This document shows, one piece after another, positions 43,365-54,876 of a DNA stretch of 64,000 bases. Below the pieces are notes generated by a model, which was not told the origin of the DNA, made no database searches, and saw only the letters and a list, made by a program, of their open reading frames with translations. Every line of letters begins with the position of its first letter. Within the stretch, counting starts at the first letter, position 1. This DNA comes from Alphaproteobacteria bacterium (GTDB lineage: Bacteria; Pseudomonadota; Alphaproteobacteria; Reyranellales; Reyranellaceae), in contig CANJHI010000005.1 in the NCBI GenBank assembly GCA_947474005.1, forward strand, positions 1 to 64,000, in the 5' to 3' direction. Position numbers and translations under genes: made by a program.

Positions 43365-43465
43365 GCCGTCCTCCGCGAGAATTTGCCCAGCCGCTTTGTT
43401 GGGGGGCCCACTTTGTTGGCCCGCCGATTGCTTATAAGGTGATTCGATAAGGGGTGAAATGCCGG

Positions 43466-44917
43466 ATGGCCGCCAAGGCATTTGACGAAATGAATTCCGG
43501 GACATCGGGCCCGGGAGGGACTGATTCGATCCGTGCGCCCTATCGCGGTGTCGCCAACTGGCTCGCGCGCACGTCGCCCGAGCGGGTGGCGGCGACGCGC
43601 CACGAAGTCGACCTGTTCTATCGCCGCCACGGCATCACCTTCGGCGCCTATGGCGCCGTCGACGGCCATGAGGCCACGATCCCCTTCGATATCATCCCGC
43701 GGGTCATGGCCTGGGACGAGTGGGAATACTTGCATAAAGGTCTGGTGCAGCGCGTGCAGGCGCTCAACGCCTTCCTCGCCGACGCCTACGGCGCACGGGA
43801 TATCTGCCGCGCCGGCGTGGTTCCCGAGAGCCAGATCCTGATGAACGGCGAGTTCGTGGCGATGGCGCAGGGCCTCGCCCTGCCCGGCGGCGTGCATGCC
43901 CACATCGCCGGCATCGATCTCGTGCGCGTCGGCGAAAAGGACTTTTACGTTCTCGAAGACAACGTCCGCACGCCCTCCGGCGTCTCCTACGTTCTGGAGA
44001 ATCGCGAAGTCATGATGCGGCTGGCACCCGAGCTGTTCTCGGCCATGCGGGTGTTGCCGGTCGCCAACTATTCCGAGGAACTCCTGGCGACACTGCGGTC
44101 GGTGTCGTTCAGCGACGATGCCGAGCCCAATGTGGTGCTGCTGACGCCGGGCCATTTCAACAGCGCCTATTTCGAGCATGCGTTCCTGGCCGACGAAATG
44201 GGCATCGAGCTGTGCGAGGGCGCCGACCTGTTCGTCGACGAGGGCCGCGTCTACATGCGCACCCCGCGCGGGCCGCAGCGAGTCGACGTCATCTACCGCC
44301 GCGTCGACGATGCCTTTCTCGATCCATTGGCGATGCGACCGGATTCCTTCCTCGGCGTCGCCGGCCTTTTGGGCGCGCTGCGCGCCGGCCGGGTCAACAT
44401 CGTGAACGCGCTCGGCAACGGCGTAGCCGACGACAAATCGACCTACACCTACGTTCCCGAGATGATCCGCTTCTATCTCGGCGAGGAGCCGATCCTCTCG
44501 AACGTGCCGACCTGGCGCTGCGACCGGCCCGATGATTTCAAGTATGTGCTCGAGCACCTGCCGGAGCTGGTCGTCAAGGAAGTGCATGGCTCCGGCGGCA
44601 AGGGCATGCTGGTCGGGCCGACCTCGAGCAAGGCCGAGATCGAATCCTTCGCCGACCTGGTGCGGGCGCGACCAGACAACTACATCGCCCAGCCGACCCT
44701 GGCGCTGTCCACCTGCCCGACCTTCGTCGGCCAGGGCGTGGCGCCGCGCCACGTCGATCTCCGCCCCTACGTGCTGTCGGGCCGCAAGGTGACCATCATC
44801 CCCGGCGGCCTCACGCGCGTGGCGCTGAAGGAAGGATCTCTGGTCGTCAATTCGAGCCAGGGCGGCGGCACCAAGGACACCTGGGTGCTCGCGCCTGAAG
44901 CCGGCTCGGGTGGTTAG
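43466..44917 (+). CDS. Circularly permuted ATP-grasp protein (COG2308 type)
   Basis: A 483-residue protein of the circularly permuted ATP-grasp amidoligase family, predicted to form amide bonds between small molecules or peptides. Landmarks are the N-terminal GITFGAYGAVDGHEATIPFDIIPRV (landmark PFDIIPRVM), NGEFVAMAQGLALPGGVH, VLEDNVRTPSGVSYVLENR, and the C-terminal half with VVKEVHGSGGKGMLVGP and SSQGGGTKDTWVL. Such proteins are typically encoded beside Alpha-E and transglutaminase-like genes, as here; no reaction has been established to my knowledge. The start is ATG 43466; a GTG at 43454 is possible. It is divergent from the enoyl reductase. Confidence 0.9.
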   Translation: MAAKAFDEMNSGTSGPGGTDSIRAPYRGVANWLARTSPERVAATRHEVDLFYRRHGITFGAYGAVDGHEATIPFDIIPRVMAWDEWEYLHKGLVQRVQALNAFLADAYGARDICRAGVVPESQILMNGEFVAMAQGLALPGGVHAHIAGIDLVRVGEKDFYVLEDNVRTPSGVSYVLENREVMMRLAPELFSAMRVLPVANYSEELLATLRSVSFSDDAEPNVVLLTPGHFNSAYFEHAFLADEMGIELCEGADLFVDEGRVYMRTPRGPQRVDVIYRRVDDAFLDPLAMRPDSFLGVAGLLGALRAGRVNIVNALGNGVADDKSTYTYVPEMIRFYLGEEPILSNVPTWRCDRPDDFKYVLEHLPELVVKEVHGSGGKGMLVGPTSSKAEIESFADLVRARPDNYIAQPTLALSTCPTFVGQGVAPRHVDLRPYVLSGRKVTIIPGGLTRVALKEGSLVVNSSQGGGTKDTWVLAPEAGSGG

Positions 44918-44935
44918 GTTCATGTGTCACTCGAC

Positions 44936-45008
44936 CATGAGCGCGCAGGATGCGCGCGGTCCGGAAGATCATGAGTCTTCTGGACCGCGAGCCTCCGGCT
45001 CGCTCATG
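44936..45008. repeat. 73-bp cruciform-like intergenic repeat
   Basis: Nested palindrome between the ATP-grasp and Alpha-E genes. Outer arms CATGAGCG (44936-44943) / CGCTCATG (45001-45008) are perfect. Inner arms GCGGTCCGGAAGA (44956-44968) / TCTTCTGGACCGC (44976-44988) match at 12 of 13. Small side hairpins lie between them. It looks like a mobile REP-type element inserted into an operon. Confidence 0.65.
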
Positions 45009-45028
45009 CACGAGTGGGCGGTGCAGCC

Positions 45029-45961
45029 ATGCTGAGCAGCACCGCCAAGAATCTCTACTGGATGGGCCGCTACCTGCAGCGCGCCAAGTCGACGGCACGG
45101 CTGATCGAGGCGACGCAGCGCATGGCGCTGCAGTCGCGCGGCGAGGAAGCCGCCGGGGTGGCCGCCATCTTCGGCATGGAAGACGAGTTCCGCCAGACCC
45201 AGGAACAGGGCGGCCGCCTGGCCAGCCTCATCGACTTCCTGGTGGTGGACGAAAGCAACCCCTCCTCGATCGTGAGTTCGATCGCCGCCGCCCGCAGCAA
45301 CGCCCGCGAGGAGCGCAACAACATCACCGTCGACGTGTGGGAGAGCCTTAACGCGCTGTGGCTGGAGCTCGGCTCGCGCCTGCGCAGCGACCGCGCGACG
45401 CTCGATCGCGGCGCGCTGATCGAATCGGTGAAGAAGCAGGCGGTGATGATCTTCGGCGCCGCGCAGGTGACGCTCCTGCGCGACGAGGCCTATCACTTCC
45501 TCCAACTCGGCGCTTTCCTCGAACGGGCCGACAATACCGCCCGCATCGTCGACGTGAAATTTCACCTGTTGCGGCCCGACGGCGATCCGCATGCCGACAA
45601 GCCCGACTACTTCGCCTGGTCGGAAGTGCTCGCCTGCATCGGCGCGGTCCGCACCTATCGCCGCATCTATCGCAGTGCGCTCGATCCGGCGAAGGTCGCC
45701 GAGCTGATGGTGCTGCGCCGCGACGTGCCGCGCTCGGTGCACCATTGCCTGTGGATGGTCGACCTCAACATGCGCGAACTCGCCGATGCCTACGGCACGC
45801 GCGGCGAGGCCGACCGGCTGGCCGGCGAACTGCACACACGCCTGCGCTATGCGCGCATCGACAAGATCTTCGAGATCGGCCTGGCCAAATTCCTGGGCGG
45901 GGTACGCGACGACATCGCCACGCTGTCCGACGAAATCGGCAGCCAGTTCCTGCTGGATTGA
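45029..45961 (+). CDS. Alpha-E domain protein (COG2307)
   Basis: A 310-residue, mainly alpha-helical protein starting MLSSTAKNLYWMGRYLQRAKSTARLIEAT, the hallmark of the Alpha-E family (landmarks LYWMGRYLQRA). Other conserved stretches are NARGAR-like SNAREERNNITVDVWESLN, HFLQLGAFLERADNTARIVDVK and RRDVPRSVHHCL. The family has no proven activity; it is nearly always linked to circularly permuted ATP-grasp and transglutaminase-like genes and is presumed to work with them on a peptide or small-molecule product. ATG 45029 is chosen over GTG 45014 because the conserved region starts there. The next gene begins 6 bp after its stop. Confidence 0.92.
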   Translation: MLSSTAKNLYWMGRYLQRAKSTARLIEATQRMALQSRGEEAAGVAAIFGMEDEFRQTQEQGGRLASLIDFLVVDESNPSSIVSSIAAARSNAREERNNITVDVWESLNALWLELGSRLRSDRATLDRGALIESVKKQAVMIFGAAQVTLLRDEAYHFLQLGAFLERADNTARIVDVKFHLLRPDGDPHADKPDYFAWSEVLACIGAVRTYRRIYRSALDPAKVAELMVLRRDVPRSVHHCLWMVDLNMRELADAYGTRGEADRLAGELHTRLRYARIDKIFEIGLAKFLGGVRDDIATLSDEIGSQFLLD

Positions 45962-45967
45962 ACGACC

Positions 45968-46786
45968 ATGCGGTTCGCCATCGAGCACACGACACGCTTC
46001 CAGTTCGACCAGCCGTCCGGCCATTCGATCCATGACGTGCGGCTCACGCCCAAGCCGGCGGCCGGCCAGCGCGTCGTCTCATGGCACATCGACGGGCCGG
46101 GCAAGCGCTCCGAATGGGTCGACGGCCACGGCAACCAGGTGACGACCTTCTCGGCGGCCTACCGGCACGACAGCGTCGAAATCACGGTGCGCGGCATCTA
46201 CGAATACAGCGGCGCCGACCAGTGGCTGCGCTATGTCGAGACGCCGACGCTTCCGGCGCCGTTCTGGCTGCGCAATTCAGGCCTCGCCCGCCACGATTCG
46301 AGCTTCGATCCGGTGATCGAGGGCCTCGCCGAGCGAGCAGCCGACCCCAGTCATCGGGTTGCGGTCCTGCACGAGGTGATGGACCGCATCGGGCGGCGCA
46401 TCGCCTACAAGACAGGCGTCTCCACCGTCGACACCACCGCCGCCGAGGCGCTGGCCCGTGGCGCCGGCGTGGCCCAGGACGATGCGCACGTCTTCATTGC
46501 CTGCTGTCGGCGGCTCGGCGTGCCGGCGCGTTATGTCAGCGGCTATCTGCGCAACGACGATCCCGAACTGCATGTCGGCCGCACCAGCCATTCCTGGGCC
46601 GAGGCCTGGGTTCCCGGACTCGAATGGGTCGGCTTCGATCCGGCCAACGCCATCAGCCCGCACGGCGACAGCCTCAGGGTGGCGGTCGGCCTCGACTATC
46701 ACGATGCCGCCCCGGTCAGCGGCCGGCGTGTCGGGTTCGGCGGCGCCAAGATGACCGTCGATGCGTCGGTTCGCGTCGTCGACTAA
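45968..46786 (+). CDS. Transglutaminase-like protein lacking the catalytic Cys
   Basis: A 272-residue protein with the N-terminal beta domain (VRLTPKPAAGQRV) and transglutaminase-like core of the COG1305 group that accompanies Alpha-E and ATP-grasp genes. The usual core reads GVCQDFAH; here it is GVAQDDAH, so Ala169 (codon GCC) replaces the nucleophilic Cys. The other two triad residues are present: His208 (SHSWAEAW) and Asp224 (GFDPAN). Two Cys at 179-180 lie one helix later but are part of the normal IACCRxLG pattern. It may be a non-catalytic or differently acting member. ATG 45968 follows the Alpha-E stop by 6 bp; clearly one operon. Confidence 0.88.
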   Translation: MRFAIEHTTRFQFDQPSGHSIHDVRLTPKPAAGQRVVSWHIDGPGKRSEWVDGHGNQVTTFSAAYRHDSVEITVRGIYEYSGADQWLRYVETPTLPAPFWLRNSGLARHDSSFDPVIEGLAERAADPSHRVAVLHEVMDRIGRRIAYKTGVSTVDTTAAEALARGAGVAQDDAHVFIACCRRLGVPARYVSGYLRNDDPELHVGRTSHSWAEAWVPGLEWVGFDPANAISPHGDSLRVAVGLDYHDAAPVSGRRVGFGGAKMTVDASVRVVD

Positions 46787-46838
46787 AGCGTGTCGACCGA
46801 GGCTTAACGCCGGTACGGCACGAACCTACGAGAAATAG

Positions 46839-48140
<1,302 letters not shown>

Positions 48141-48544: not shown

Positions 48545-50620
48545 ATGGCTGACATCAAAACCGAGACCATCACCGGCGGCAGGCCAGGTAGCGGCGCGCA
48601 TCGCGTGGTGGCGCTGTGCGGGCCGTATCTTTCGGGCAAGACCAGCCTGCTCGAGAGCATTCTCTACGCCACGGGGGCCATCGGCCGGCGCGGTTCGACG
48701 CGCGCGGGCACCTCCATCGGCGATGCCGCGGCCGAGTCGCGCAAGCGCGGCATGGGCACCGAGATCAATGTCGCCTCGGTCGACTATCTCGGCGATCAAT
48801 GGACCTTCCTCGACGTTCCCGGCTCGATCGAGTTCCAGCACGACGCCTTCGCAGCCCTTGCGGTGTGCGACGTGGCGGTCGTGGTGTGCGAACCCTCGCC
48901 CGAGCGCGTCGTGTCCCTGGCGCCGCTGCTGAAATGCATCGAAGACCGCCACATCCCGCACATCATTTTCGTCAACAAGATCGACTCGGCGGAAGCCCGC
49001 GTGCGCGACATGCTGTCGGCGCTGCAGTCGGTGTCGACGCGCAAGCTGGTCCTGCGCCAGGTGCCGATCCGCCGGCCGACCGACAACGGCGGCGAGGAGA
49101 CGATGGGCTACGTCGATCTCGTGAGCGAGCGCGCCTATCGCTACAAGAGCAGCGGCGCTTCCGATCTGATCGAGATGCCGGCCGAGATCCTGCCGCGTGA
49201 ATCGGAGGCCCGCCGCGAACTCCTGGAAACGCTCTCCGAGTTCGACGACACGCTGCTGGAGCAGCTCATCGAAGACATCGCGCCGGAGAAATCCCTGATC
49301 TACCGCGATCTCCACGACGAATTCGGCGCCGACAAGATCGTGCCGGTGCTGCTGGGTGCCGGCGATCGCGAGAATGGCGTGCGCCGGCTCCTGAAAGCGT
49401 TGCGCCACGACACCCCGTTCGCCGCCGAAACCGCCAAACGCCGGTCGCTCCCAACCAATGGAACAGCGGTCGCGGAATGCTTCAAAGTCTTGCATCAGTC
49501 GCATGCCGGCAAGCTCTCGCTGTGCCGGGTGTGGTCAGGAACGCTCACCGAAGGCCAGTCGCTCGGCGGCCATCGCATCGGCACGATGCTGCGGCCGTTC
49601 GGCCAACGCCTCGACAAGATCGCCGAAGCACGCAGCGGCGAGCTCGTGGCGCTCGCCAAGCTCGATGTGCTCTCGGCGGGCCATGTGCTGGGCGCGACCG
49701 GGATCGCCCCGTCGGCCGATTTTCCGGCGCCCGCGCCTGCGGTGTTCGTCCTGTCGCTTGCCGCCAAGAACCGCAACGACGAGGTCAAGCTTTCGGGCGC
49801 CCTGCACAAGATCGTCGAGGAGGATCCGTCGCTTGCCTTCGAGGCGCGCGGCGAAACCCATGAGCTGCTGATCAAGGGCCAGGGCGAGATGCATCTCAAG
49901 GTCGCGGTCGACAAGCTCGCCGGCCGCTACAACGTGGCCGTCGAGACCGCGGGGCCGCGCGTGGCCTACCGCGAGACCATCCAGGCCGGCACCCAGCAAC
50001 ATGCACGCTACAAGCGCCAGACCGGCGGCCACGGTCAGTTCGCCGACATCAAGGTCGAGATCCGGCCGCTGCCGCGCGGTTCGGGTTTCCGCTTCGTCGA
50101 CAAGATCGTGGGCGGCGTGGTGCCGCGCAACTTCATTCCCGCGGTCGAGGAAGGCCTGATCGATTACCTGAAGGAGGGCCCGCTCGGCCAGCCGATCGTC
50201 GATATCGAGGTCACGCTGGTCGACGGCCAGTACCATGCGGTCGACAGTTCGGAGATGTCCTTCAAGATGGCGGCGCGCATCGCCATGAGCGAGGCGATGC
50301 CGAAATGCCGCCCTGTGCTGCTGGAGCCGATCCTCAAGGTGACCGTCGCGGGGCCCAGCGAATCGACACCACGACTGCAACGGCTGATCTCGGGCCGGCG
50401 CGGCCAGTTGCTGGGCTACGACGCCCGCCCGGGTTGGGACGGCTGGGACGAGGTCTCGGCGCTGATGCCGGAGGCCGAGATCGCCGACATGATCGTGGAG
50501 ATCCGCTCGGTGACGCAGGGTGTCGGCACGTTCCGCACCGAGTTCGACCATCTGCAGGAAATCGCCGGACGGACCGCCGAGCGCATCGTCGAGGAGACCA
50601 GGAAGCACCAGGCCGCATAG
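48545..50620 (+). CDS. EF-G-like translational GTPase paralogue lacking the catalytic His
   Basis: A 691-residue protein with EF-G domain order: G domain, domain II, III, IV and V. G1 is GPYLSGKT (26-33), G3 is DVPGS (90-94), G4 is NKID (144-147). Canonical EF-G has DTPGHVDF; here the His that positions the hydrolytic water is Ser94 (PGSIEF). Domain III/IV landmarks are GQGEMHLKVAVDKL and GGHGQFADIKVEIRPL. The protein is thus not the housekeeping FusA but an EF-G-like paralogue that may bind GTP and hydrolyse it slowly or otherwise. The true fusA, expected near str genes, is not in this window. ATG 48545; no operon partner upstream. Confidence 0.9.
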   Translation: MADIKTETITGGRPGSGAHRVVALCGPYLSGKTSLLESILYATGAIGRRGSTRAGTSIGDAAAESRKRGMGTEINVASVDYLGDQWTFLDVPGSIEFQHDAFAALAVCDVAVVVCEPSPERVVSLAPLLKCIEDRHIPHIIFVNKIDSAEARVRDMLSALQSVSTRKLVLRQVPIRRPTDNGGEETMGYVDLVSERAYRYKSSGASDLIEMPAEILPRESEARRELLETLSEFDDTLLEQLIEDIAPEKSLIYRDLHDEFGADKIVPVLLGAGDRENGVRRLLKALRHDTPFAAETAKRRSLPTNGTAVAECFKVLHQSHAGKLSLCRVWSGTLTEGQSLGGHRIGTMLRPFGQRLDKIAEARSGELVALAKLDVLSAGHVLGATGIAPSADFPAPAPAVFVLSLAAKNRNDEVKLSGALHKIVEEDPSLAFEARGETHELLIKGQGEMHLKVAVDKLAGRYNVAVETAGPRVAYRETIQAGTQQHARYKRQTGGHGQFADIKVEIRPLPRGSGFRFVDKIVGGVVPRNFIPAVEEGLIDYLKEGPLGQPIVDIEVTLVDGQYHAVDSSEMSFKMAARIAMSEAMPKCRPVLLEPILKVTVAGPSESTPRLQRLISGRRGQLLGYDARPGWDGWDEVSALMPEAEIADMIVEIRSVTQGVGTFRTEFDHLQEIAGRTAERIVEETRKHQAA

Positions 50621-54537: not shown

Positions 54538-54876
54538 ATGTCGGTCCGGCTCCGCCTCGACAAACCGTGGCGACCGCTGACGCCGGAAGAAGCCGCGCGG
54601 CTGCCGGGCCAGCTCGGCGTCTACCAGATCGCCGATGCCGTGGGCGCCATTCTCTATATCGGCCAGGCCGGCGGCCGCTCGCCGTTCGGCCTGCGCAGCG
54701 AACTCGCACGCGAGGCAGAGGAGCGCGGCCCGGGCCGGCAGTTCCGCGTCGAAGTGAACATGCAGTATCGCAGCCGCTGGTTCGAATTGCTGATGGTCCA
54801 CAAGGCCGACCACGGCGAGCTGCCGCCCGACAATGCCAAAAACCCGCCGCCGCTGGGACGCTTGAGCCCGGCCTGA
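54538..54876 (+). CDS. GIY-YIG-like small protein (DUF7508-like)
   Basis: A 112-residue protein with LGVYQIADAVGAILYIGQAGGRSPFGLRSEL (landmarks GVYQIAD and ILYIGQAGGRSPFGLR), resembling the core of GIY-YIG nuclease-like domains: the two short strands with Y...YIG and a following Arg. A full nuclease set (including a metal-binding Glu) is not clear, so nuclease activity is uncertain. The gene lies 16 bp after the enoyl-CoA hydratase stop and 9 bp before the acyl-CoA dehydrogenase start, so it is a regular member of this CoA operon; why is unknown. Confidence 0.72.
   Translation: MSVRLRLDKPWRPLTPEEAARLPGQLGVYQIADAVGAILYIGQAGGRSPFGLRSELAREAEERGPGRQFRVEVNMQYRSRWFELLMVHKADHGELPPDNAKNPPPLGRLSPA

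Follow-up and report, generated by a model that had tools for sequence, protein, structure and literature searches.

A transglutaminase-fold protein without its catalytic cysteine is maintained in a remodelled Anbu operon of the Reyranellaceae

Introduction

Anbu operons are widespread among bacteria. Iyer et al. reportedly described the operon in 2009 as a set of genes for an ATP-grasp protein, an Alpha-E protein, a transglutaminase-like protein and Anbu. The first ER motif of Alpha-E proteins is family-defining, and it is established for the transglutaminase family that no thioacyl-enzyme can form without the catalytic cysteine. The Anbu operon is known from published work (PMC5666114, PMC6376114). 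In Yersinia, the ATP-grasp homologue released phosphate from ATP, and pull-downs did not show Anbu in a stable complex with the products of the other operon genes (PMC6376114). Among animals, the erythrocyte protein band 4.2 is an inactive transglutaminase (PMC6265872, PMC5417640).

The window analysed here is a 64,000-nucleotide stretch of DNA from a member of the Reyranellaceae. These are soil and water bacteria, and 76 genomes of their order were surveyed for the comparisons below.

Results

An Anbu operon without Anbu

Genes for an ATP-grasp, an Alpha-E and a transglutaminase-like (TG) protein lie in this order on a single strand (43454-46786), which is the arrangement of the Anbu operon. 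The features of the first two genes and of the downstream gap are as follows.

43454..44917, + strand: operon gene 1, circularly permuted ATP-grasp ligase (CP_ATPgrasp_2, Pfam 1.1e-158)
45014..45961, + strand: operon gene 2, Alpha-E protein (Pfam Alpha-E, 1.1e-85)
45077..45082, + strand: first ER motif of Alpha-E, here Gln22-Arg23 (CAG CGC) and not Glu-Arg
45521..45526, + strand: second ER motif of Alpha-E, Glu170-Arg171, intact and invariant in all rows
46787..46937, no strand: usual place of anbu in related operons; only 151 bp here, followed by an aminotransferase gene

The Alpha-E gene has an alternative ATG start at 45029 and is separated from the TG gene by 6 bp. A promoter-like site was looked for and not found. 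Most outgroup operons carry Anbu directly downstream of the TG gene. A query with the Anbu protein found no Anbu in the source genome, in which the only proteasome-family gene is HslV, adjoining HslU. The absence of Anbu was called by this protein query; PF00227 is too weak for that purpose and misses clear Anbu proteins, such as that of G241. Anbu surveys that use Pfam only under-count.

In the ATP-grasp tree, the nearest rows (G241, G350, G292 and G152) all have Anbu, which indicates common descent with four-gene operons. The operon carrying the Ala-bearing TG is the known Anbu operon, remodelled. It shares the first three genes, their order and their strand with its nearest relatives G241, G350 and G292, which have all four genes, but its genome has no Anbu, its TG has alanine for the nucleophile and its first Alpha-E motif reads QR. 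The preliminary description of this locus was right about the ATP-grasp/Alpha-E context but missed the Anbu origin, the loss of Anbu and the change in the first Alpha-E motif.

The TG nucleophile position is fixed as alanine

Both the domain architecture (PF08379 with PF01841) and the fold place the third gene product in the TG family. Pfam matched Transglut_core (3.4e-19) and Bact_transglu_N (7.8e-17), and NCBIfam gave no match. Its features are listed here; the Ala clade comprises the Reyranella/Enhydrobacter rows of the homologue alignment.

45968..46786, + strand: operon gene 3, TG-like pseudoenzyme of 272 aa (Pfam PF08379 and PF01841, AlphaFold, dN/dS)
46472..46474, + strand: Ala169 (codon GCC), at the catalytic-Cys position
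46505..46507, + strand: Cys180, in 61/61 rows of the Ala clade, three helical turns beyond the nucleophile position
46589..46591, + strand: His208 (CAT), of the former triad, kept in 61/61 rows of the Ala clade
46637..46639, + strand: Asp224 (GAT), of the former triad, kept in 61/61 rows of the Ala clade

The AlphaFold model of the protein is confident (mean pLDDT 91.2, pTM 0.90). Residue 169 is at the N-terminal start of helix 169-182, as expected for the catalytic Cys. The closest solved structure, PDB 3isr (TM 0.74 against the model), is a putative cysteine protease from Cytophaga hutchinsonii. The two proteins are alike in their full-length domain match, their fold and their triad His and Asp, but the column of residue 169 pairs with Cys in 3isr, and the Reyranella TG departs from this structure and from the PF08379/PF01841 family in having no catalytic Cys. 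Of the features of an active TG, the Cys at the helix N terminus is absent while the His and Asp are present.

The preliminary description had read the core motif, GVAQDDAH, as showing alanine in place of the catalytic cysteine with the other two triad residues retained. The alignment of homologues bears this out. The residue-169 column is Ala in 61/61 Reyranella/Enhydrobacter rows (about 57 of them distinct, a few genomes being present in two collections) versus Cys in 63/63 canonical orthologues, so that Ala has become fixed in this clade. Scanning the genomes of individual species gave a consistent result: all 53 Reyranella/Enhydrobacter-type loci (77.9-97% identity) had Ala and all 26 more distant loci had Cys, with the His and Asp aligned in both groups. 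Ala-bearing isolates include R. massiliensis 521, R. soli, R. aquatilis and Enhydrobacter aerosaccus ATCC 27094. Sequencing error was excluded, since Ala is seen in dozens of independent assemblies.

Most of the remaining active-site signature is kept. Eighteen positions are 100% conserved in the 63 canonical TGs, and only Cys169 and Gly219 are altered in the Ala clade, the latter position being Glu in 77% of its rows. The protein retains its fold and the greater part of its cleft but has lost the nucleophile. His208 and Asp224 may have been retained for structural reasons, given that 107 of the 272 columns do not vary within the clade. About 28 residues are shared by all members of the Ala clade and rare in canonical TGs, among them Cys180, Arg182, Arg195, Asn196, Trp50 and Trp86. 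These clade-specific residues are candidates for a clade-specific interface.

The TG gene is under purifying selection

Pairwise dN/dS was estimated by the Nei-Gojobori method. Across 44 genomes of the Ala clade, medians of 0.174 (TG), 0.166 (Alpha-E) and 0.117 (ATP-grasp) place all three genes under purifying selection; canonical Cys-bearing TGs compared in pairs gave values mostly between 0.08 and 0.23. No internal stops were found among the TGs listed for the order in a search with the TG protein. A pseudogene was rejected on these two grounds, a dN/dS of about 0.17 and the lack of stops. A catalytic residue is gone and purifying selection is present, as in a pseudoenzyme. Because its dN/dS matches that of Cys-bearing orthologues, the TG is a maintained pseudoenzyme, and neither a pseudogene nor a sequencing error. 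The pseudoenzyme reading proposed in the preliminary description is strongly supported by the fixation of Ala, the differing lesions of sister genera (below), purifying selection and the retention of the rest of the active-site signature. Strong selection on the TG despite broken catalysis argues for some non-catalytic role.

Different triad lesions in the Reyranellaceae and in other Alphaproteobacteria

The triad is also broken in other genera of the family. An orthologue from the sister genus g4 (67% identity) likewise has Ala. Three genomes of g3 have Arg at the Cys position (GVRQD), and three of g5 keep the Cys with His208 changed to Pro and His174 to Gln. In the ATP-grasp tree, the Reyranellaceae rows with lesions form one clade (support 99), with subclades for Ala (98), Arg (100) and His-to-Pro (100), and their closest relatives have Cys/His/Asp TGs and Anbu. 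The trees were quick searches with SH-aLRT support, and the branching order of Ala, Arg and g5 is not settled by the ATP-grasp tree. Most simply read, three breaks of the TG triad took place within the Reyranellaceae.

In the sample of Alphaproteobacteria outside the family, about 60 orthologues had Cys/His/Asp and five did not. These five lost the catalytic Cys to Tyr (L169 in G106 and L229 in G364), Pro (L192 in G152), Ser (L176 in G110) or Gly (L184 in G085). All five are in other alphaproteobacterial ATP-grasp/Alpha-E operons. The Ser of G110 might still serve as a nucleophile. One 30-row ATP-grasp clade, with 29% of tree length, contains seven of the eight lesions (binomial p ~0.001, only indicative because the clade was chosen post hoc), and its 38-row sister clade contains none.

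Stepwise stripping of the operon

The first gene of the operon has changed little: of 115 ATP-grasp positions with conservation of at least 97% across 65 outgroup rows, 113 are the same here. Alpha-E matches its family (PF04168) over the whole domain and has an intact second ER motif beside the QR first motif. Within the Ala and Arg clades, position 22 is Gln in 60/60 rows; it is His in 3/3 of g5 and Glu in 56/56 other rows. A conserved Trp46 is also missing from Alpha-E in the Reyranellaceae. The three nearest relatives with a Cys-bearing TG, in which Anbu is still present, already have QR in the first motif. The first-motif Glu was thus lost in an ancestor shared with these relatives, and because of them the motif change is placed first.

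The Anbu protease was found in 4 of the 76 genomes of the order, namely one g5 genome (G073) and G034, G037 and G042, and was absent from all genomes with an Ala or Arg TG and from most of those in g5; many of these are drafts, and several of the Anbu-negative ones are single-contig or near-complete. Since G073 has a broken TG with Anbu present, the TG lesion can precede the loss of Anbu. As read from these sequence comparisons, remodelling affected the first ER motif of Alpha-E, then the TG triad, then Anbu. The Anbu operon of the Reyranellaceae has been stripped stepwise, and the TG fold outlives catalysis.

Strict coupling of the TG lesion with the loss of Anbu was only partly supported. 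Lesions coexist with an Anbu that has an N-terminal Thr in G106 and G364 (Tyr), in G152 (Pro) and in one g5 genome, and an independent-pairs test of lesion against loss gave p 0.5 with too few pairs.

G034 (L128), G037 (L126) and G042 (L127), of the same genus as Ala-bearing genomes, have no Ala operon; what they carry is a distant Cys operon of canonical type that includes Anbu. Such an operon is missing from all Ala genomes (Fisher p 0.0008, with relatedness ignored). The canonical Anbu operon has apparently replaced the Ala operon in these three genomes.

Discussion

A putative non-catalytic subunit

Taken together, the data make it probable that the 45968-46786 product is a maintained TG-fold pseudoenzyme in a remodelled Anbu operon and a putative non-catalytic subunit for the ATP-grasp/Alpha-E ligase. 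The ATP-grasp protein would still be an amide or peptide ligase that works with Alpha-E, in line with the phosphate release by its Yersinia homologue. The TG-fold protein would form no acyl-enzyme, and its otherwise intact cleft would be used non-catalytically, most likely to hold the peptide substrate or product of the ligase or to stabilise the ligase/Alpha-E assembly. The preliminary description had suggested a subunit that binds or scaffolds the ATP-grasp product; this is plausible and is the putative role that we favour. The negative pull-downs in Yersinia count against this best explanation.

Band 4.2 offers a likeness, since there too a TG fold was kept for a structural role after catalysis was lost. 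It also has Ala at the Cys position. It differs in its remote animal lineage, its membrane-skeleton function and its domain architecture.

The Reyranellaceae provide a natural dissection of the operon, in which ATP-grasp and the TG fold persist while Anbu, the catalytic function of the TG and one motif of Alpha-E can be lost. The function of the operon without hydrolysis becomes a directly testable question. The data also advise caution in annotation, as not every TG in an Anbu-type operon should be annotated as an enzyme.

Other explanations

The preliminary description had raised the question of a second, Cys-bearing copy, and one was found. Contig C85 carries a second ATP-grasp/Alpha-E operon (L003/L089) with the same three protein types, but its ATP-grasp and Alpha-E are fused in one protein and its TG, at about 30% identity, keeps Cys/His/Asp (GVCQDFAH). 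The Ala-bearing TG could then be a regulatory pseudoenzyme partner of a Cys-bearing paralogue, chiefly the C85 TG, with catalysis supplied in trans. The source genome has at least five Cys-bearing TG paralogues, one of them adjoining the second ATP-grasp/Alpha-E gene, and nearly all Reyranella genomes have both Alpha-E operons. However, G071 is a 100% complete genome in which the Ala operon occurs with a single Alpha-E gene, so that a partner from the second operon is not required. The other TG-fold proteins of G071 are distant, and identity between the paralogues is only about 25 to 31%. We regard a regulatory partnership as unlikely.

Continued catalysis by another nucleophile, or by none, is more doubtful still. 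The preliminary description had named Cys179/180 as a possible site of the nucleophile, and Cys180 is indeed present throughout the Ala clade; alternatively, the conserved His208 and Asp224 could activate water. Residue 180 nevertheless sits 11 residues down the same helix in the AlphaFold model, and is mostly Ala in canonical enzymes. Cys180 is also found in g5 and g3, including the proteins in which His208 has become Pro, and does not compensate for a lost Cys. Cys179/180 was therefore rejected as the nucleophile on its helix position and its presence in sister clades with other lesions, and a TG that remains an enzyme is improbable.

Decay of an operon that can do without catalysis and whose TG is heading for loss would account for the missing Anbu, for the several function-defining residues already gone and for the few genomes of the genus without the operon. 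It is very improbable given an Ala169 fixed with no stop or frameshift in dozens of species (lowest identity ~78%) as well as in a genus at 67% identity, the conserved synteny of the three remaining genes and, above all, a dN/dS equal to that of canonical orthologues, which largely refutes it.

A wider role for the TG fold

The preferred reading, a non-catalytic subunit for the ligase, may extend beyond the Reyranellaceae. Because catalytic residues were lost at least eight times in the Alphaproteobacteria, and a single ATP-grasp clade accounts for seven of these losses, the TG fold could have a second, non-catalytic function across that 30-row clade. Judged from sequence, it is conceivable, and no stronger than a tentative proposal, that this operon lineage shifted from make-and-process to make-only, with the TG as reader or holder of the product, the first Alpha-E motif altered and the Anbu hydrolase dispensable.

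Downstream of the operon, the gene at 48545-50620 encodes a full-length EF-G-like GTPase with all EF-G domains and a weak match to domain 2; the protein looks like an EF-G paralogue. Further on, 54538-54876 encodes a protein of 112 residues whose only match is DUF7508 (PF24348).
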